A stretch of DNA of 51,391 nt from a virus: IMG/VR virus record IMGVR_UViG_3300001847_000262, positions 1 to 51,391 of that record. One strand, 5' to 3'. Below are positions 4,906 to 37,674 of this stretch, piece by piece. Position 1 is the first letter of the stretch, and every line of letters begins with the position of its first letter. The translations under genes and the position numbers were made by a program. The notes under the pieces are model-generated. The model saw nothing but the letters and a program-made list of their open reading frames with translations. It searched no databases and was not told the DNA's origin.

Positions 4906-7900
4906 ATGGCAGAAGAAAAAAATCAAGAATCTCCTGTTAAATTATTTAACAAGGGGATGAATCAAGATATAGATCCTAAAATATTAGAGAATGGATATTA
5001 TATTGAAGGACATAATATTGAAATTATATCTGACAATACTGGAACATCATTTGATGTAACTAATACTAAAGGAAATTCTTATAAAATAACATTTCCTGTA
5101 ATTAGACAAGTACAAGAGATTAAAATTAATACTCTTCCAATAGAACCAGTTACATGTAATATAACAATTGGAGGAAATATAGGAACTATCAGTTTAACAT
5201 CTACCAGTACATTATTAGATATATATAATTGTATAGCAACAATTACAGGATATAATAGTACATTCTTTGCTTATATTAGTGGTACACATATTGTTATTTA
5301 TTCTCCTATTGGAGGATCTTATATAGGAGATATAACAATATCTTATAGTGCTGGTAGTGATTATTTAAATCTTAATACTGAATATATACCTGAACAACCA
5401 ATTAAAGATTTTCCATATAATATTATAGGAAGTGTCCCTTTAAGAGATAGTATTTATTTATATACAACTTGTTGTACAGATAAAAATCCAGGAGGACATT
5501 CTGGAGAATTCACTCCCGATGCAAGTTCTGTAGGACAAATTTGGAAAATGTCTTATGACAAAGTGGCATTAACTGTAACACTAACATTAACATATAATAA
5601 TTATGTGGATTTTTCTACATATTGGGGTATTAGTCCTACAAGTACAATAGGAAGGTATGAAAATGATGCTATTCAAAGAATTTATTGGACAGATAATTTT
5701 AATAGAATTAGACAATGTAATGTAGTTGCTGAAAATTTATTAGCATTAGATATTACACAATTAGACATTGTTCCTGGAGTAGATTTTGACATCCCTATAA
5801 TGACTAATAGGAATGGAGGAGGAGGAAGTAAACCAATAGGAGCTTATCAATGTGCTTACAGATACAAGAATACTGGAGGAGCTGTTACAGGATGGAGTAA
5901 TCTATCTAATATAATCTATCTTACGCAATATGATGATAAGAATGGTATTGATAATTTTTTAAAAAATGTTGGTGCTGATTCTGGTACAACAACAGATCAA
6001 ACAATAACTTGGACATTTTCTAATTTAGATAAAGATTTTAATACAATAGAAATTGCTGTATGTAGAAGAGTATCTTCAACTGCAAGTCCAGATATATTTA
6101 TTATAACTGAATTACCAATTATACAAGATAATATCACATATACATATACAGGTAATGAAACTCCAATTAATGTTACATTAGAAGAATTTTTAAATACTAG
6201 TGCTGTATTTACACATTGTAAAACATTAGGAAGTAAGGATAATAGATTATTTGTTGCTAATGTTAGGACAGAACAACAAGAATTAAATTATGATGCTAGG
6301 GCTTATAGATGGAATAGTGGTGGTATATTTAAAGTAGTAAATGATGGAGTATTATCTCCAGGATTAACAAGTGCGGATTATGATGATCCTACATATTTAG
6401 CTGAAACAAAAGATACTATTAACCCTTCTTTATACATACCTTCACCTGTCACAGGATTCATTTATCAATCCGATGGATCTACACTAGGTGGGGAAGGACC
6501 ACATATCTCTTATGAATTTTTTACTATGGCTTCAGAATGTGACTCCAGTAGTACAAATTACAAAGTAATAGATGATGAATTAAGTCCCTGGAGATGGACA
6601 AATCCAAATTTAACAACTAATGATGTTACGTTAGATGTTAAATCTATTACTAATTTAAATACAGAATATAATCAAGTATATACTAATAATTTTGCATTAG
6701 GAAAAGTCAATGCTGGTATTAAATATAATAGTGTGGCAACATTAGTAAGAGGATATCAAAGAAATGAAATTTATAGATTTGGTATTCAATTTTATGATAA
6801 ATCTAAAAATCCGTACTATGTAAAATGGATTGGTGATATTAAATTCCCAGATTATTGGGAATTTAATCCAAATCCTCTATATGAAGATGGAACTTTTGAT
6901 CCACTTTCCAATTTCAATTTAGTATTTGCTAAAAATACTGGATATCAACAAGCATTTGTAAGACATCTAGGTATTAAGTTTACAGTGAATATTCCAGATG
7001 AATTAATACCACTGATTGATGGGTATTCTATTGTAAGAGTGAAAAGAGAACAAAAAGATAAAACTATTTTAGCAACTGGTGTTATAAATCCAGTCATGTC
7101 TGATAGTGATATACCAAATCAATTATATTGTACGTCATTATATAATAATACTTTTAGTCCTTTTAATGATGCTGGTAATTTTACTTATACAATGACAGAT
7201 TTTGAAAATAGACTATTCTTTACATGTCCTAACCCATGTGATCAATCGCAACCAACTACGTTTACTGGAAAAACTTTAAAAATTAAAGGAATCTTAGAAC
7301 CAGCAAATAGTGATAATCAAATGTATTTTACTGGTGGTGGATTCCCTTCTGTTATAAATGATTACTTTAAATATTATAAGATGAATGATCCTGGAGGATT
7401 AGCATCTGGTACATTAATTGATAATTCAATATTTTTAAGTCCTGCTGGAACTGCAATAGATGAGGAACCAGGTGCAATATATCGTCCAATTAATAATTTT
7501 GATATTGGAGCAAGATGGGATACTGGATTAGGTATGTTTGTTCAGGATACAACAAGATCATTTTCTGTTGGAAATCCAATAACTTATATAAGATTGAATT
7601 CAGCAATAGATTGGGATGGAACAATAGGGAATACTAATTTTAATAAATATTTTGTAACTATTGAACATTCTTTAGTGGATCAATATGGAGGAAATACATT
7701 TGTTGCAAGATCTAATAATCAATATATGTCATGTCAACATTATAGACCTGTTAGAAGCAACTCTATAAATGATACTTTCTTATTATTTGGTGGAGATACG
7801 TGGGTACAAATATATGATTCTTTAAGGTGGTCATGTAATTTTGGAAATATAAGAACTCCTGTAGATTGGACTAGCGGACATGATTTATTTCCATTCTCTG

Positions 7901-9303
7901 GCGCACAGTTTTTTCCAACAGAAACAGATATAAATACTGAATTACGATATGGAGGATATATTAATAGATTTTATAAAGATGAAGGAAGTTTACCAGGAGA
8001 ATATTATGAAACATACACAACAAATGCTGTATTTTCATTAGAAAATGACATACAAGTATATTTTCCTAAACCTTATCCTTTTATAAATAATAATATATTT
8101 GATAATAGATTTTACGCCTCAGAAATTAAAATTAATGGAGAACTAACTGATAATTGGGGAATATTTAAATCGGAGAATTATTGGGATGTAGAGGGTATAT
8201 ATGGCCCCGTAAATGCTATGAGAATACTTAAAGATAAAATGTATTTCTGGCAAAATAGAGCTTTTGGTGTAATGGAGATCAATCCTAGAGTTGTATTACA
8301 AGATCAGAATAATACAGCACTACAATTAGGTACAGGACAAGTATTACAAAGACATGATTATATATCTACAGAAGTTGGGTTACAACATCAATGGGGATTA
8401 ACTTGGAATTCCTATCAATTATTTTGGTTAGATGTTGCATTAAAGAAATTCTTTGCTTATACAGAGGGACAAGCAGTGAGTCCTGATTCTGATATTAAAG
8501 GACTATATAGTTGGTTTCAACATAATTTAAATTATAATATTAATAAATTTGATAGACCTGTTTATTATGATACAATAACTAAAGGTATTAATGGTATTAG
8601 AATGGTATATGATTATAAGAAAGATCAAGTAATAATTTGTATTACAGATACTCTTGATAAATATACAACACCTAATTATTATACATTAATTTGTAATACT
8701 AAAACAAATAGTTTCACTAGTTTTAGAAATGCTCAATCTGCTACATTATTTCCTACAGATGGATATTATATATTTTCACCATATTATAATGGAGAAGATA
8801 TGACTATTTATATGGAAGGAGTTGGTAATTATGGAGAATGGTATGGAATTAAATATCCTAGTAAAATTAAATTTTCTGTTAATACAAGTCCAACAATAAC
8901 TAAAACTTTTGATAATTTATTTTTAGATGTTCAAAGTTTGAATTCTAGTAAAGTTAATCAATATTCAGATTTTTGGAATAAAATTAGAGTGTATAATGAT
9001 TCACAAAATACAGATTATCAAAATTTTGTAATAAAAACTAGCTATAATTCTCCAATTAATTGGAATGTTAATAGAAAAGAAAGAACTTGGAAATTAGCAA
9101 TTCCTAGAAATAGAGTAATTAATGTTCTTACACAAAGTCCTGATATATTCAATCCTACTAATTTATCTAGTCCTAATAATAAATCTTTTGGAGATAGAAT
9201 GAGAGATAAATATTTTATTGTGGATTTAGTCTATAATAATCAAGATAATAATCTTTTGATAACAAATAATGTTATACCTAATTTAAGGGAATCTAATCGT
9301 TGA
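4906..9303 (+). CDS. Tail stabilisation / muzzle protein, P22 gp10-like
   Basis: This 1465-residue, beta-rich protein is dominated by Asn, Thr, Tyr and Gly. Its start has the signature of the P22 gp10-like stabilisation family: LFNKGMNQDIDPKILENGYY, then a G-H-N-I-E-I element. In P22 this family forms the propeller-shaped tail nozzle, and in crassviruses the equivalent large protein forms the 'muzzle' at the tail tip through which DNA and cargo leave. It is much longer than P22 gp10 (about 470 residues), consistent with the enlarged crassvirus version. It follows the gp4-like gene by two bases. No catalytic motif was seen. Its stop is a tandem TGA TAA, and a non-coding gap with a promoter follows. 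Confidence 0.8.
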   Translation: MAEEKNQESPVKLFNKGMNQDIDPKILENGYYIEGHNIEIISDNTGTSFDVTNTKGNSYKITFPVIRQVQEIKINTLPIEPVTCNITIGGNIGTISLTSTSTLLDIYNCIATITGYNSTFFAYISGTHIVIYSPIGGSYIGDITISYSAGSDYLNLNTEYIPEQPIKDFPYNIIGSVPLRDSIYLYTTCCTDKNPGGHSGEFTPDASSVGQIWKMSYDKVALTVTLTLTYNNYVDFSTYWGISPTSTIGRYENDAIQRIYWTDNFNRIRQCNVVAENLLALDITQLDIVPGVDFDIPIMTNRNGGGGSKPIGAYQCAYRYKNTGGAVTGWSNLSNIIYLTQYDDKNGIDNFLKNVGADSGTTTDQTITWTFSNLDKDFNTIEIAVCRRVSSTASPDIFIITELPIIQDNITYTYTGNETPINVTLEEFLNTSAVFTHCKTLGSKDNRLFVANVRTEQQELNYDARAYRWNSGGIFKVVNDGVLSPGLTSADYDDPTYLAETKDTINPSLYIPSPVTGFIYQSDGSTLGGEGPHISYEFFTMASECDSSSTNYKVIDDELSPWRWTNPNLTTNDVTLDVKSITNLNTEYNQVYTNNFALGKVNAGIKYNSVATLVRGYQRNEIYRFGIQFYDKSKNPYYVKWIGDIKFPDYWEFNPNPLYEDGTFDPLSNFNLVFAKNTGYQQAFVRHLGIKFTVNIPDELIPLIDGYSIVRVKREQKDKTILATGVINPVMSDSDIPNQLYCTSLYNNTFSPFNDAGNFTYTMTDFENRLFFTCPNPCDQSQPTTFTGKTLKIKGILEPANSDNQMYFTGGGFPSVINDYFKYYKMNDPGGLASGTLIDNSIFLSPAGTAIDEEPGAIYRPINNFDIGARWDTGLGMFVQDTTRSFSVGNPITYIRLNSAIDWDGTIGNTNFNKYFVTIEHSLVDQYGGNTFVARSNNQYMSCQHYRPVRSNSINDTFLLFGGDTWVQIYDSLRWSCNFGNIRTPVDWTSGHDLFPFSGAQFFPTETDINTELRYGGYINRFYKDEGSLPGEYYETYTTNAVFSLENDIQVYFPKPYPFINNNIFDNRFYASEIKINGELTDNWGIFKSENYWDVEGIYGPVNAMRILKDKMYFWQNRAFGVMEINPRVVLQDQNNTALQLGTGQVLQRHDYISTEVGLQHQWGLTWNSYQLFWLDVALKKFFAYTEGQAVSPDSDIKGLYSWFQHNLNYNINKFDRPVYYDTITKGINGIRMVYDYKKDQVIICITDTLDKYTTPNYYTLICNTKTNSFTSFRNAQSATLFPTDGYYIFSPYYNGEDMTIYMEGVGNYGEWYGIKYPSKIKFSVNTSPTITKTFDNLFLDVQSLNSSKVNQYSDFWNKIRVYNDSQNTDYQNFVIKTSYNSPINWNVNRKERTWKLAIPRNRVINVLTQSPDIFNPTNLSSPNNKSFGDRMRDKYFIVDLVYNNQDNNLLITNNVIPNLRESNR

Positions 9304-9345
9304 TAATTAAAATGATTATATTATAACAAATATATCACTAAAAAT

Positions 9346-9374
9346 TTGGAAATATCAATAAAATATAGTATATT
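9346..9374 (+). promoter_or_regulatory. Putative phage promoter, copy 2
   Basis: In the 94-base gap before the cargo/RNA polymerase genes, TTG (9346-9348), AAAT, TCAATAAAA (9355-9363) and TATATT (9369-9374) repeat the blocks at 1163-1191 with identical spacing. The start codon of the next gene is 24 bases further on. This copy has no hairpin after it. It would drive the 774-residue gene, the cargo gene and the two giant virion genes as one unit of about 23.5 kb. Confidence 0.6.
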
Positions 9375-9397
9375 ACAATATACAAACAACAAATACA

Positions 9398-11722
9398 ATG
9401 AAGAAAAAACCAAAACTTAAAAAGTTCTCTCCTGGTGGTTCATATAATGAACAAACTCCCGATTGGAATAAGGCTCAAGAAGCTATGAATAACCCGTCAG
9501 ATCCTAATAGAGGAGCTGGTAATAATATTGGTTATGCTACACAGGTTGCTAATATGGTTACACCTTATTTAGCTAATAAAAAACTAGAAACACCAACAGA
9601 TCCATATATTAACATGGGATATAATATAGGTAGCAAAATTCCAGGAGTTGGACAATACATTACTATAGGACATACAGGATCACAATTAGTTGATGCAGGA
9701 GCATCAAGAATTAAAGATAAGAATTTATCGTCTGGAGTTGAATATTTTTCAGGATCAATGGATCCATTAAGTGGTTGGAGTAAAAATAAAGCAATGCTGG
9801 ATAATGGAGAGGAATCTAAAACTGACGCTGCCATTAATGTCGGACTTCATTTAATTAGTCCTGGATTAGATACAGCAAGAGAAAATTATTTACATAGAAG
9901 TTATTTAGAAAATCAAAATAATAATACGTCAAATATGCAATATAGACATGGAGGGAAACATCATCCTAAAATACAATGGACTAATCCTAGTCCAGGAAGT
10001 GCTATTTATGGAAATCAAGAACAATTTCCAGGAGGAGGTGTTTATAAAGAAAATATAGATTTTTTAGGAACTAATTATGATGATGTTGGAATAAATAAAG
10101 ATTTTAAAAAATTTAGTATATCTGGTGGAAATTATATACCAAGAAAAATAAATGAAGAAGGAAAACCAATTTTATTTAATCCTCATTTAAATATGGAAAT
10201 ACCTTTAAAAAATAATTGGAGTATTAATGGAGAATATGGAATACCTACAAATAATAATGATCCTTATTATGGAATAGGTATTAGAAAACAATTTCCTAAT
10301 GGAGGTATGTCAGATAATCCAAATGCTGAAGTAGAAAATTCTGAAAATACATTAAATCCTGATGGAAGTACAAATCAATATAATGGTCCATCACATGAAC
10401 AAGGTGGAATACCTACACAATTAGACCCTAACACGCTTATTTTCTCTGATAGATTAAAGATGCCAGGCACTAAAAAAACATTTGCAGAACTCAATAAAAA
10501 GAATAATACCGATAAACAAGTAAAAGTACTAGAAGATGATGATGCTTCTTCTACAGCAAAAGCAACAGCTCAATTAATTAAAGATTTAAAAAATAAGAAA
10601 TCTTTAGAATTATTTAATATTCAAGAAGCTTCTAAAAAAGCTAAACTTAATAATTACGCTAATAAATTAGGAATTGAACTTCCTCAACAATCTTCTAATC
10701 AAGAACAGTTTAGAAGTGGAGGCATTAAAAAATATTGGAATGGAGGTGAATCTTCATCCATGATACAAAATGATGCAAATGATAATGACATTTTTTGGAA
10801 TAATTTTTGGTCTAAAAGTGATTTATCTCCAGATAATGGAACATTTTCTTATGAAAAAGAACCAAATTTTAATGATGATAGACAAAGAGTTAATAATGAA
10901 TATAATTCTATTCCAAATATTATCACTCCAGAAACTAGTAGTAAAATTGATGGATTTTATGGAGATTCTAATAATGAAATTAAAAATCCTAAAATATATA
11001 ATACTTTTGCATATAGAGATAAATTAGCGGATAATCCAAATATATATCAATCTAATATATCTCAACCAGATAAACCTCCTGGAAAAACAGAACCTAACTT
11101 TTGGGATAAAAATGGACAATCTTTACAAGATGCTTCTGCTGGATTAGCACAATCTGCTCCTTATTTATGGAGTTTACATAATAATAAATTTGGTAAGAAA
11201 TATGATACAACAACACCGTATTTAATAACTCCTCATTTATTATCTGATAGAGAGGCTATTAAAGATAATGAAATTGCTTATAAAACTGCTTTGTATAATT
11301 CTAGACAAATAGGAGGTCCTGGAACATTGGGAGCAATGAATAACGCTTATGCTAATAAAGTAATGAATGATGCTAAGATTAGAGAATCTTTTGCTAATCA
11401 AAATGCAGGAATATTAAATCAAACAGATGAATTTAATGTAGGACAAAAGAATTTAGCAAGAGAACTTAATTGGAAATCCAAAGCTAGAGCAGAAGATCAG
11501 GCATTTAGAGACATAGACGGAGTAGCGACCAATATGGCATCCAGCTATAAAACTACTAAGGAAAATGCTTCTCAAAACATGGCTTTAAAGATGATGGGAG
11601 ATTTATATCCTGATTATAGATGGGATAAAAAAACATCTACTTGGAGACACAAAATTGATAATACTGAATTAACAGAGGATGTTAAATCAGGAAAAACAAA
11701 GCCTGTTACACAAACTACATAA
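9398..11722 (+). CDS. Crassvirus virion (probable cargo) protein with repeated x-GG motifs
   Basis: The 774-residue protein is polar and low in hydrophobic residues. It carries at least six aromatic/basic-x-x-GG elements: KKFSPGGS near the N-terminus, YRHGGK, EQFPGGG, KQFPNGGM, then FRSGGI and YWNGGE around 440-450. The middle contains GPSHEQGGIPTQL followed by TLIFSDRL and a Lys-rich helix, a combination I associate with crAss-like structural proteins. The C-terminal 150 residues look helical (Gln/Asn/Ala-rich). It is first after promoter copy 2 and ends one base before the next virion gene. A role as an internal or ejected cargo protein is inferred from position beside the RNA polymerase genes. 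Two ORFs overlapping it (one per strand) are frame shadows. Confidence 0.65.
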   Translation: MKKKPKLKKFSPGGSYNEQTPDWNKAQEAMNNPSDPNRGAGNNIGYATQVANMVTPYLANKKLETPTDPYINMGYNIGSKIPGVGQYITIGHTGSQLVDAGASRIKDKNLSSGVEYFSGSMDPLSGWSKNKAMLDNGEESKTDAAINVGLHLISPGLDTARENYLHRSYLENQNNNTSNMQYRHGGKHHPKIQWTNPSPGSAIYGNQEQFPGGGVYKENIDFLGTNYDDVGINKDFKKFSISGGNYIPRKINEEGKPILFNPHLNMEIPLKNNWSINGEYGIPTNNNDPYYGIGIRKQFPNGGMSDNPNAEVENSENTLNPDGSTNQYNGPSHEQGGIPTQLDPNTLIFSDRLKMPGTKKTFAELNKKNNTDKQVKVLEDDDASSTAKATAQLIKDLKNKKSLELFNIQEASKKAKLNNYANKLGIELPQQSSNQEQFRSGGIKKYWNGGESSSMIQNDANDNDIFWNNFWSKSDLSPDNGTFSYEKEPNFNDDRQRVNNEYNSIPNIITPETSSKIDGFYGDSNNEIKNPKIYNTFAYRDKLADNPNIYQSNISQPDKPPGKTEPNFWDKNGQSLQDASAGLAQSAPYLWSLHNNKFGKKYDTTTPYLITPHLLSDREAIKDNEIAYKTALYNSRQIGGPGTLGAMNNAYANKVMNDAKIRESFANQNAGILNQTDEFNVGQKNLARELNWKSKARAEDQAFRDIDGVATNMASSYKTTKENASQNMALKMMGDLYPDYRWDKKTSTWRHKIDNTELTEDVKSGKTKPVTQTT

Positions 11723-34242: not shown

Positions 34243-35883
34243 TTATTTATTATTTATTTTACTTCTTATTTCACTAAATGTAGTTTCTTTTACTAATTTA
34301 CCGTTTAAATAGACAGTTTGAAGTTCACAATTTTCTACTTCTTTCCAACTAACTTGATCAACTAAATAATAATCTCCTACATCATTTTTATATACAGCTA
34401 TTAATCCTTTAGCCGATTTCTTTGTACCATCATCAGTAATAGGATCTTTAAAGATTTCTCTAGCTGCAGTTATATATTGTGGACAATTATCTTTTTTACA
34501 ATCATTTTTCTCACAATCACAAGATTTCTTAATTTCTACATAAGTAGATTTTACAGCTCCTCCTTGATTATCTCTTGTGGCATAACCCATAGAGTAAGAA
34601 CCTATTCCTAATACAACATTAGTACTAGCAAATCCTTTAGCTTTAAGTCTCTCACAAATCTCTTTAGCTGTATCTAAGGTAATAGAGTCACCATAAATAG
34701 CTCCAATATGTGAATCCAGAACTTTGTAACCTTGTTCATTTACAGTACCCCCAAATATATCCCAAAGTAATTCAATTACACCTTTATTAACAGAAGTTAC
34801 ATCTGTAGTTTCTTCACCAATTACTTCATAATTATCATTTAGTTTTACTTTATAGTATTTATTATCAGTATAGTTAAGAACAATTCCATTTTCACCTACT
34901 TTATTTAATACACCTTCAGTAAATCCTTGAACTCTCCAAGCATCACCACAAATAATATCAACAGGATTACCTGAATCAGGTCTAATAACTAGTTTACCAT
35001 CTCTTGTTAAGATTTCTTCTTTTAGTTGAGGTAAGTATTCTGTAATTAATTTCCATAAATTCCAAGTATCGGATACCACCGAAAGAATGCCTTTAGGATA
35101 TTGTTTCATGAGATATTTTAAAGTATCTATTTCTCCCTCTTTACCATGAGCACACATTACTGAATGTTCACTAGCTGGTACACTAAATCCTACATTATCA
35201 TCTCCATAATAATATTTAATACCTTGTAATGCAGGTATAGTATCTGTACCCATAAAACTTGTTAAAAAGCCCATTCCTGAGCTTATAGCAGATTCTATAG
35301 ATTGCATACCTCTAAAACTAAAATCATGTCCTTGAAAATTTACAAATTCTAAAGTGTCTGTATTAGTTTCTTTAGCATATTTAGTTAATACTTTCTTATA
35401 AGCATAAGATAAACTTGCTGAGTGTACAGGTTTCCAAATTAACGTACTTAAACTAGTTTCTAAGAAATTAGTTACCCAAAAGAAATCAGGATGGGTGTTT
35501 TTAATAGTAAATAATGGAATACCTTCTTTTATAATAGTTCCTTCTTCTAAAGCTTTAATTTCAATAGGAAGATATCCTAAATCATGCAAGGCTTCAAAAT
35601 GAGAAACATCATATTCCATTCCTAAATAACTTTGTAAAAACTCTTTAGCTTCATTTATCATTTGATCTTTAGGTTGTTTAAAGAAATTTTCATTCCATAA
35701 ATCATTAATGTATTTACACATATATTGAATACCAAATACTACTATATCTTTAGAATTTTCTGGCATTCTTTTAGTACTACGACAAGTATAATTACTATAT
35801 ACTAATGTAGTATTTTTAGGATACATAAGTCTATGTGAAGACTTATATCCATCTATATTTAATAAAGGATTAATTTTTAACAT
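34243..35883 (-). CDS. nadV: Nicotinamide phosphoribosyltransferase family protein (NAMPT/NadV; possible Namat of NARP1)
   Basis: The 546-residue protein matches NAMPT in length and key motifs. D11-G-Y13-K corresponds to human D16/Y18, FSFRG near 190-195 to F193/R196, ASEHSV near 240 to H247, and IRPDSGNP near 300 to R311/D313. The classical reaction joins nicotinamide to PRPP to give NMN, starting NAD+ salvage in the cytoplasm. In the phage NARP1 pathway a homologue (Namat) instead joins nicotinamide to ADP-ribose pyrophosphate and makes NAD+ directly. The next gene upstream encodes the matching Prs-like partner and overlaps this one by 14 bases. No NMN adenylyltransferase was seen in the window. 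A cysteine-rich insert (CDCEKNDCKKDNC) near 450-465 is unusual. Family call strong; substrate open. Confidence 0.9.
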   Translation of the reverse strand: MLKINPLLNIDGYKSSHRLMYPKNTTLVYSNYTCRSTKRMPENSKDIVVFGIQYMCKYINDLWNENFFKQPKDQMINEAKEFLQSYLGMEYDVSHFEALHDLGYLPIEIKALEEGTIIKEGIPLFTIKNTHPDFFWVTNFLETSLSTLIWKPVHSASLSYAYKKVLTKYAKETNTDTLEFVNFQGHDFSFRGMQSIESAISSGMGFLTSFMGTDTIPALQGIKYYYGDDNVGFSVPASEHSVMCAHGKEGEIDTLKYLMKQYPKGILSVVSDTWNLWKLITEYLPQLKEEILTRDGKLVIRPDSGNPVDIICGDAWRVQGFTEGVLNKVGENGIVLNYTDNKYYKVKLNDNYEVIGEETTDVTSVNKGVIELLWDIFGGTVNEQGYKVLDSHIGAIYGDSITLDTAKEICERLKAKGFASTNVVLGIGSYSMGYATRDNQGGAVKSTYVEIKKSCDCEKNDCKKDNCPQYITAAREIFKDPITDDGTKKSAKGLIAVYKNDVGDYYLVDQVSWKEVENCELQTVYLNGKLVKETTFSEIRSKINNK

Positions 35884-36721
35884 TTTTAAATAAATTTATA
35901 GTTTCTAAGTTTTCATAACAATAATTAGTATATACAATTCCTTTAGAATTTGTAGTAAATATTTTGTCAAACAATTTAAATAATTCTGAATTAGGAGCTT
36001 CTACAGTTATGTGACTAACAGCCAAATATAACTTACCTATATTTCTTTCTTTAAGTAATTTTGCTAATCCTATAAATGTTCCTCCATATACACAAATATC
36101 ATCTATTAAAAGAATATCCTTACCTCCAAAATCTTGTTTATCTATAATCTGAATAAGTTTATCTTTTTCTCTTGCTTTACTAGCAGAATAAGTTTCTCCT
36201 TGCCAATTTATTTGTTTACAGAGTTTTATTAAAGATTTAAATCCCCCAGCATCGCCACTCATTAAAATAAGATTATTTTTAATTCTGCTATCATAATTCA
36301 AATTATCAGTAGTTCTATCAAATTCATCTTCCAGTATTACAGGATATGTAGTACTATCTGATTTCTTTATAGACCATAAACAATTTAGTATAAACCTAAA
36401 ATTATCAATAATTTCACAATTATTTAATAAAGCTGGAGTAACATCTGAATGTGGATGGAATACTTTAACTTTTTCAAAATTGCAGGAATTAATAAAATCA
36501 CATACTAATTTAAGTTCAAATGATTCATTAGGATTAAATCTTCTATCATGTTGTTGTTGAAACATACAAGGAATAGTTATTTCTTTTAATTTAGGATTAG
36601 CATCTTTAATAGATTTAAGGAGAAACAAATCTTCATAAGAATTAATTCTATATGTAAGATTTGTTTCATTTAAATCATTAATTACATACTTACCTCCATC
36701 TGGGTAATTATCAATTATCAT
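35870..36721 (-). CDS. Ribose-phosphate pyrophosphokinase-like protein (Prs; possible ADPR-PP synthetase, Adps)
   Basis: The 283-residue protein has the Prs layout. CMFQQQHDRRF near 53-63 stands where Prs has its P-x-x-R-Q-D-R ATP-contact segment, VFHPHSDVTPALL near 85-97 matches the D-P-H-S/A element, and LLIDDICVYGGT near 202-213 matches the PRPP-binding loop. The loop differs from the canonical D-D-x-x-D-T-G/A-G-T: Val-Tyr replace Asp-Thr. A changed sugar-phosphate site would fit the NARP1 enzyme Adps, which pyrophosphorylates ADP-ribose instead of ribose-5-phosphate. It overlaps the NAMPT-like gene by 14 bases, implying joint translation. Its start overlaps the stop of the upstream diphosphohydrolase gene (ATGA). 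Ordinary PRPP synthesis feeding NMN production is the alternative. Confidence 0.8.
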   Translation of the reverse strand: MIIDNYPDGGKYVINDLNETNLTYRINSYEDLFLLKSIKDANPKLKEITIPCMFQQQHDRRFNPNESFELKLVCDFINSCNFEKVKVFHPHSDVTPALLNNCEIIDNFRFILNCLWSIKKSDSTTYPVILEDEFDRTTDNLNYDSRIKNNLILMSGDAGGFKSLIKLCKQINWQGETYSASKAREKDKLIQIIDKQDFGGKDILLIDDICVYGGTFIGLAKLLKERNIGKLYLAVSHITVEAPNSELFKLFDKIFTTNSKGIVYTNYCYENLETINLFKNVKN

Positions 36722-37077
36722 TTAATTTCTTTATAAATTTTATTTCTATTATCTTCACCTTTATTTAGATGAATATTTTCTCTTAACATCATAAGACTTG
36801 CAATAGCATGATCTATATGATGACATTGACTTTCATCAATATCTTCTCCTATCATCCAAGCATTTAAATGTCTTTGACAAGCATCATAATATCTAAGCCA
36901 TTCCATTCCTTTAGAATAATTAAATTTAGCATATTTTTTAGCTCCATAATTAAATACTTTAGCTACAGACATTAAACTATGTTGAGGAATATCAGATATA
37001 CAAATTTTCCCTTCATCATTTTTTATTGCTGCTGTTATAGGTTCAGATTCAAATATTCTTTTTCTATCTACACTCAT
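36718..37077 (-). CDS. DUF5664-type dATP/dGTP diphosphohydrolase-like protein
   Basis: The 119-residue protein contains FNYGAKKYAKFNYSKGMEWL, then YYDACQRHLNAWMIGED, then HHIDHAIASLMML. This is the G-A-x-K-Y...W-x-x-Y...A-x-x-R-H-x-x-A/K-W...D-x-D/H-x-A-x-A pattern of the DUF5664 family, annotated as dATP/dGTP diphosphohydrolases, with a helical metal-binding core. It would hydrolyse purine dNTPs or adjust the nucleotide pool. It lies between the Prs-like gene and a membrane-protein gene with ATGA overlaps at both ends, so it is firmly part of the nucleotide cluster. The real substrate is not readable from sequence. Confidence 0.75.
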   Translation of the reverse strand: MSVDRKRIFESEPITAAIKNDEGKICISDIPQHSLMSVAKVFNYGAKKYAKFNYSKGMEWLRYYDACQRHLNAWMIGEDIDESQCHHIDHAIASLMMLRENIHLNKGEDNRNKIYKEIK

Positions 37078-37364
37078 AATATATTTGTTATATATTTAGC
37101 TAATTCAAATCCTATTCCTGTACCACACATAGCTCCAAATGAATAAATAATTCTGTCTATCCATTTGCCAAATGCTACTTGTTTAACATTAAATGTCCAA
37201 AATAAACTTATTAGAAATCCAGTAATTAACATCATTACAATATATCCTTTAGATATAAATGTAACATTCATTGCTACCATTGTAACTTGTAATAATGCTG
37301 TAAAAAATAGGCTTATTCTTTGTTTTAAGAGACTTTCTATATCTCCGCTATCTATTATCCCCAT
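37074..37364 (-). CDS. Small membrane protein in the nucleotide-metabolism cluster
   Basis: The 96-residue protein has a short polar N-terminus (GDIESLLKQR), two close hydrophobic segments at about 18-36 and 40-57, and a third weaker one at about 70-90 with G-x-x-C-G-x-G-x-G. It overlaps the MazG-like gene upstream by 17 bases and the diphosphohydrolase gene downstream by ATGA. I do not recognise the family. Its location among soluble nucleotide enzymes suggests a transporter-like, defence-related or superinfection role, but none is shown. Confidence 0.6.
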   Translation of the reverse strand: MGIIDSGDIESLLKQRISLFFTALLQVTMVAMNVTFISKGYIVMMLITGFLISLFWTFNVKQVAFGKWIDRIIYSFGAMCGTGIGFELAKYITNIL

Positions 37365-37674
37365 TACCTTGTATAACTCCTCTAGAAGCTCTATCTTTCA
37401 GTTTATTAATATTATCTTGAGCTATTTCATCTAATGAAATATTCAAATCTCTAGCTAATGCTGCCATATACCACAAAACATCTCCAATTTCACCTGCTAT
37501 TCCTGCAATTTTATCAGGAGTATATACACCATCATTATCTCTAAGTACTTTTTTAATTTTACCTAACACCTCTCCTGCCTCATTTGCAAGTCCTAATGCT
37601 GGATATATAATTGTATTTTTTGTTCCATATATAGCTGTTTTTACAGCTTCTTCTTGATATTCTTTAAAATCCAT
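37348..37674 (-). CDS. mazG: MazG-like nucleoside triphosphate pyrophosphohydrolase
   Basis: The 108-residue all-helical protein has LANEAGEVLGKIKK near 29-42 and IAGEIGDVLWYMAALARDL near 57-75. These are the E-x-x-E ... E-x-x-D magnesium-binding motifs of the MazG/all-alpha NTP-PPase superfamily, at the usual length for single-domain phage members. It would convert (d)NTPs to monophosphates, and phage MazG proteins have been linked to nucleotide-pool and alarmone control. It starts seven bases after the stop of the HNH nuclease gene, which appears to have been inserted between it and the ribonucleotide reductase gene. Family call is strong. Confidence 0.85.
   Translation of the reverse strand: MDFKEYQEEAVKTAIYGTKNTIIYPALGLANEAGEVLGKIKKVLRDNDGVYTPDKIAGIAGEIGDVLWYMAALARDLNISLDEIAQDNINKLKDRASRGVIQGNGDNR

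Follow-up and report, generated by a model that had tools for sequence, protein, structure and literature searches.

A very probable NARP1 gene pair in an uncultured low-GC virus

When analyzing a linear virus contig of 51,391 bases and about 26% GC (the window, meaning the whole stretch of DNA analyzed, which is possibly a genome fragment), we found two adjacent genes, adps and namat, that very probably form a NARP1 system, judging from their families, residues, and gene context. The original prediction had named the pair a NARP1 candidate, and this reading held: phylogeny puts both proteins with Adps and Namat, apart from classical Prs and NAMPT; the published clamp signature (PMC12774641) is present; and no NMN adenylyltransferase (NMNAT) is. 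The pair adds to the known kind of NARP1 and is not a new kind. In the proposed chemistry, Adps would use ATP to pyrophosphorylate ADP-ribose, giving ADPR-PP, and Namat would swap the pyrophosphate of ADPR-PP for nicotinamide, giving NAD+ in one step, with both products of NAD+-cleaving defenses being recycled without NMNAT. We infer substrate specificity, enzyme activity, and protection of the phage from NADase defenses from tested relatives, namely SPbetaL1 (PMC12774641) and ICP1 NrsAB (PMC11559045), which were studied biochemically or genetically.

The locus and its gene chain

The genes of the locus are as follows, each with the evidence for its assignment.

34243..35883, minus strand: namat, nicotinamide ADP-ribose transferase, 546 aa (open reading frame; Pfam, PHROG, tree, clamp motif, fold)
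35870..36721, minus strand: adps, ADP-ribose pyrophosphate synthetase, Prs family, 283 aa (open reading frame; PHROG, tree, conserved residues, fold)
35870..35883, minus strand: 14-base overlap of the adps stop and the namat start (start fixed by the conserved N terminus)
36718..37077, minus strand: gene with a dATP/dGTP diphosphohydrolase N-terminal domain, upstream of adps (Pfam)
37074-37364: small protein gene in the same chain
37348..37674, minus strand: MazG-like pyrophosphohydrolase (Pfam, PHROG)

Both open reading frames and their 14-base overlap are as originally read. The two genes are the last of an overlapping chain that runs MazG-like, small protein, dATP/dGTP diphosphohydrolase-like, Adps, and Namat. 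Successive members overlap by 17, 4, 4, and 14 bases, and a reductase-like gene (ribonucleotide reductase) lies upstream of the chain. The gene at 36718..37077 belongs to the chain and stands outside NARP1. Residues D11 and Y13 of Namat are invariant across the family in the alignment, which rules out a namat start much further downstream; the overlap is therefore real. It likely couples translation of adps and namat. An overlap per se is unremarkable among relatives, in which the spacing of the two genes ranges from overlap to several kilobases. A stretch of 9,144 bases is identical in another record, IMGVR_UViG_3300001848_000370.

The dATP/dGTP diphosphohydrolase and MazG neighbors prompted a search for PurZ in the record, and none was found; a Z-genome phage is thus not obvious. 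Macro and NADAR ADP-ribose genes, which are present in operons of relatives, were sought in the window, with no hit.

That no NMNAT was visible had been pointed out before; a search with the nucleotidyltransferase family PF01467 gave no match anywhere in the 51,391-base record, which may be a fragment, while the control for this search matched in 14 of 14 genomes. The absence of NMNAT is what NARP1 predicts, in contrast to NARP2, in which a NAMPT works together with an NMNAT. As the contig is linear and possibly incomplete, an NMNAT could sit on a missing part of the genome. Such a NARP2 reading is extremely improbable: the NARP2-type NAMPT of phage KVP40 is 27% identical to the window Namat and falls in another clade, and NARP2 has no need of an Adps.

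Family, fold, and residues of the two proteins

The window Namat matches the NAMPT family PHROG 448 (E = 4.8e-185) and, in Pfam, NAPRTase (4.9e-37) and NAMPT_N (1.5e-9). Its best matches of solved structure are SPbetaL1 Namat (476 bits), the Haemophilus ducreyi NAMPT HdNadV (PDB 9ke8/9keo; 432 bits), and human NAMPT (235 bits). The structure model has a mean pLDDT of 90.8, with the SPbetaL1 Namat structures 9w5x/9w5w as top fold matches (TM 0.92 to 0.93 by target length). A tree of 82 proteins splits classical NAMPTs, including that of KVP40, from the Namat side with 100/100 support, and the window protein belongs to a 22-row group (100/99) on the Namat side; this grouping was seen again in a tree with bacterial rows added. 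HdNadV, a NAMPT, is nested within the Namat side, so the specificity of an enzyme cannot be read from its clade alone. Overall identity was also rejected as a discriminator, since HdNadV is 43% identical to the window Namat.

The published clamp criterion is a GSX-X-TRD motif in which SPbetaL1 positions 392 and 396 are aromatic. The window Namat has GSYSMGYATRD (G428-S-Y430-S-M-G-Y434-A-T-R-D438), with Y430 and Y434 as the adenine-contact residues. Both adenine-stacking helix positions are thus Tyr, as in tested Namats, compared with Gly and Gln in KVP40 and Gln and Arg in HdNadV by alignment. The middle of the clamp is M432-G433, where most Namats have Y-Q; M-G is common to 17 aligned rows, and those of them that were scored have Adps. 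For the selectivity loop (SCL), the criterion is either Arg or a Lys/Tyr whose next residue stacks (PMC12774641). The window has K38-R39 by alignment, which fits the rule for Lys-type loops, and this placement is less sure because the loop alignment is variable. The NAMPT-like catalytic core is intact (H240, D214, R301, and D303, equivalents of the His, Asp215, Arg306, and Asp308). The NAD+-binding residues of SPbetaL1 Namat have been defined (PMC12774641), and its nicotinamide, ribose, and phosphate contacts are all conserved in the window except for A362S, which is common in Namats. The window Namat also carries a Cys-rich loop, CDCEKNDCKKDNC, at residues of about 455 to 467, which is missing from all aligned relatives. 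This loop, variable and at the surface, is a possible metal site.

The partner protein matches the Prs family PHROG 619 (E = 2.6e-35) and, weakly, solved PRPP synthetases (best E = 3e-8). Its model has the Prs fold (pLDDT 88.6; TM 0.65 to 0.72 to human and E. coli Prs), and an Adps profile and tree place it in the Adps family, which accompanies clamp-bearing Namats. PADLOC gave weak matches to the ShosT and PsyrT models (E of 1e-4 to 4e-4), which were rejected as reflecting a shared phosphoribosyltransferase fold. Key residues are D59-R60, H91-S92, D157/G159, K182/R184, and DDICVYGGTF at 207 to 216, and those invariant in the whole set are kept (D59, H91, D157, G159, K182, R184, D207, D208, T215, and others). 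The Adps hallmarks HSDVT and DDxC..GGTF are present. The protein is 24% identical to E. coli Prs; the Ser after His (in HSDVT), C210, and F216 are features of the Adps set that the E. coli enzyme lacks.

The original prediction had also stressed that the PRPP loop is altered, with VYGGT for DTGGT. The reading itself was verified (DDICVYGGTF in the window compared with DDMIDTGGTL in E. coli). The change alone does not signal an altered function: the stretch varies across Adps, VYGGT is common to the nearest relatives (L007 and L014), and the active Adps of SPbetaL1 (PMC12774641) has SFGGT at this site. We therefore rejected the loop as proof of a new function and regard the change as compatible with the known activity. 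On sequence, C210, F216, and HSDVT are the more telling marks; no sequence rule for Adps specificity with biochemical proof was found.

Among known systems, NARP1 of the Bacillus phage SPbetaL1 (PDB 9w5w, 9w5x) shares with the window the order adps-namat, overlapping genes, the catalytic and clamp contacts, the Namat fold (TM 0.93), and changes at the same two sites of the Adps loop (S-F in SPbetaL1, V-Y in the window). It differs in sequence (46% identity for Namat and 33% for Adps) and at the clamp middle, and the window Namat has two longer variable loops, of which one is the Cys-rich loop private to this phage. NrsA/NrsB of the Vibrio cholerae phage ICP1 have the same two families, order, and residues and likewise require no NMNAT; the phage is a different one, identities are 45% for Namat and 28% for Adps, and the in vivo effect was shown for ICP1. 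NARP1 of E. coli phages (reference JohannJBalmer/Bas62) also has Adps followed by Namat and Lys in the selectivity loop, with identities of 38% and 32%. HdNadV shares the tree side and core with the window Namat but differs at the clamp and has no Adps neighbor. The NARP2 or classical NAMPTs (phage KVP40, human) share the NAMPT core chemistry but have Gly and Gln/Lys at the clamp, fall in another clade, and work with NMNAT.

Clamp residues and Adps neighbors across loci

If the clamp is a marker for enzymes that use ADPR-PP, an Adps neighbor is expected for clamp-bearing enzymes and not for clamp-less ones. In phage and plasmid loci, an Adps neighbor was found for 81/82 enzymes with an aromatic at position 392, compared with 1/7 without it. 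In bacterial genomes, which were not used in building the Adps profile, the counts were 40/41 with a clamp aromatic and 1/20 without. Loci with an unreadable motif were excluded (3 phage or plasmid, 6 bacterial). The rows are related, so these counts are not phylogenetically independent and Fisher p-values overstate; on the tree, clamp and Adps neighbor each change 6 times, which left too few pairs for an independent-pairs test.

These results bear on ordinary salvage, in which the Prs-like protein would make PRPP, the NAMPT-like protein NMN, and a host NMNAT would complete NAD+. Namat also uses PRPP in vitro, and the SPbetaL1 enzyme converts it to NMN about half as fast as human Nampt does (PMC12774641). 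NMNAT is usual in hosts, and HdNadV is an example of such an enzyme arising within the Namat side of the tree. Against this stand the clamp aromatics of the window Namat, the Adps-type partner, and the near absence of clamp-less NAMPTs with an Adps neighbor. The window pair has neither G and K/Q at the clamp nor the DTGGT loop, as classical NAMPT and Prs would. We consider salvage very unlikely and NARP1 the preferred reading.

There were also exceptions. Two clamp-bearing Namats (L044 and L111) had no Adps detectable in the DNA covered, and L111 is near a contig end. Several bacterial NadV-type enzymes on the Namat side (L117, L120, L128, L126, L121, L130, L157, and L163), mostly from Pasteurellaceae, have neither clamp aromatics nor Adps and are apparent reversals to NAMPT. 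In the phage locus L007, the clamp of Namat (7717-9522) no longer has its aromatics (GSCTYVMLTRD), and His replaces the conserved Ser190, perhaps through a change of specificity or decay. The Adps paired with this clamp-less enzyme is the nearest to that of the window.

Additional genes were observed in related loci. Several phages have macro-like genes, detected with a profile built from the same loci, that either separate adps from namat or directly adjoin them (L007:6774-7289, L031:3124-3597, L086:1916-2434, L077:4381-4854, L069:5491-5928, L050:7461-7922, and L005:8255-8878). When three of them were compared with Pfam, only that of L086 matched Macro, just under the cutoff. Their proteins might release ADP-ribose that feeds Adps, like RyDEP. 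NADAR genes near phage NadV have already been noted (PMC9503650), and we found NADAR-type genes in or beside NARP1 or adps loci at L086:2589-3068 (Pfam E = 5.5e-50), L058:5867-6355, L014:8636-9130, and L081:5455-5966. L014 combines adps with NADAR, macro-like, and nucleoside deoxyribosyltransferase-like genes and lacks a namat within 6 kb. In L007, L009, L037, L038, L039, L045, and L077, the interval separating adps from namat encodes a recurrent small HAD-like protein (DFDxT...LDDRAGL); the one compared with Pfam gave no match.

Origin and role of the pair

The two window proteins have different closest relatives. The window Namat is 66% identical to that of locus L016, and the Adps of the same two loci are 35% identical; the window and L007 share 64% identity in Adps and 41% in Namat. 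Both sister pairs, Namat with L016 and Adps with L007, have 100/99 support. Forcing the window Adps next to L016 was rejected (AU p = 1e-6), as was forcing the window Namat next to L007 (AU p = 1e-4), and these p-values are somewhat optimistic in that the groups were named after the trees had been seen. Over 75 loci, the Adps and Namat trees correlate (Mantel r of 0.45, with 0 of 2,000 permutations as high), which indicates that the two genes are usually inherited as a pair and occasionally change partners. The window NARP1 was thus probably assembled from two lineages by an exchange of partners between phages; the two enzymes would then have to share no more than free ADPR-PP. This fits the finding that Adps and Namat do not form a stable complex (PMC12774641), and it is one point that a specialist might not expect.

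The same chemistry could serve mainly to keep NAD+ high for phage synthesis or in a slow host, and less to counter NADase defenses. The position of the genes in a chain of nucleotide metabolism (MazG, dATP/dGTP diphosphohydrolase, ribonucleotide reductase) would suit such a role, and NARP1 also occurs in bacterial genomes (PMC12774641). We consider it unlikely as the main function: the substrates are the products of NADase defenses, tested homologs protect against several such defenses (PMC12774641, PMC11559045), and ICP1 NrsAB costs fitness when the defense is absent (PMC11559045), which speaks against a general benefit.

Read as a NARP1 counter-defense, the pair would bring NAD+ rebuilding to a low-GC, uncultured phage whose proteins are moderately identical to those of tested systems. 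In the survey of about 150 loci, the clamp aromatic was nearly always accompanied by adps, which backs the use of the published motif as a practical marker. If the exchange of partners is true, Adps and Namat can evolve as separable modules, and other makers or users of ADPR-PP could exist.
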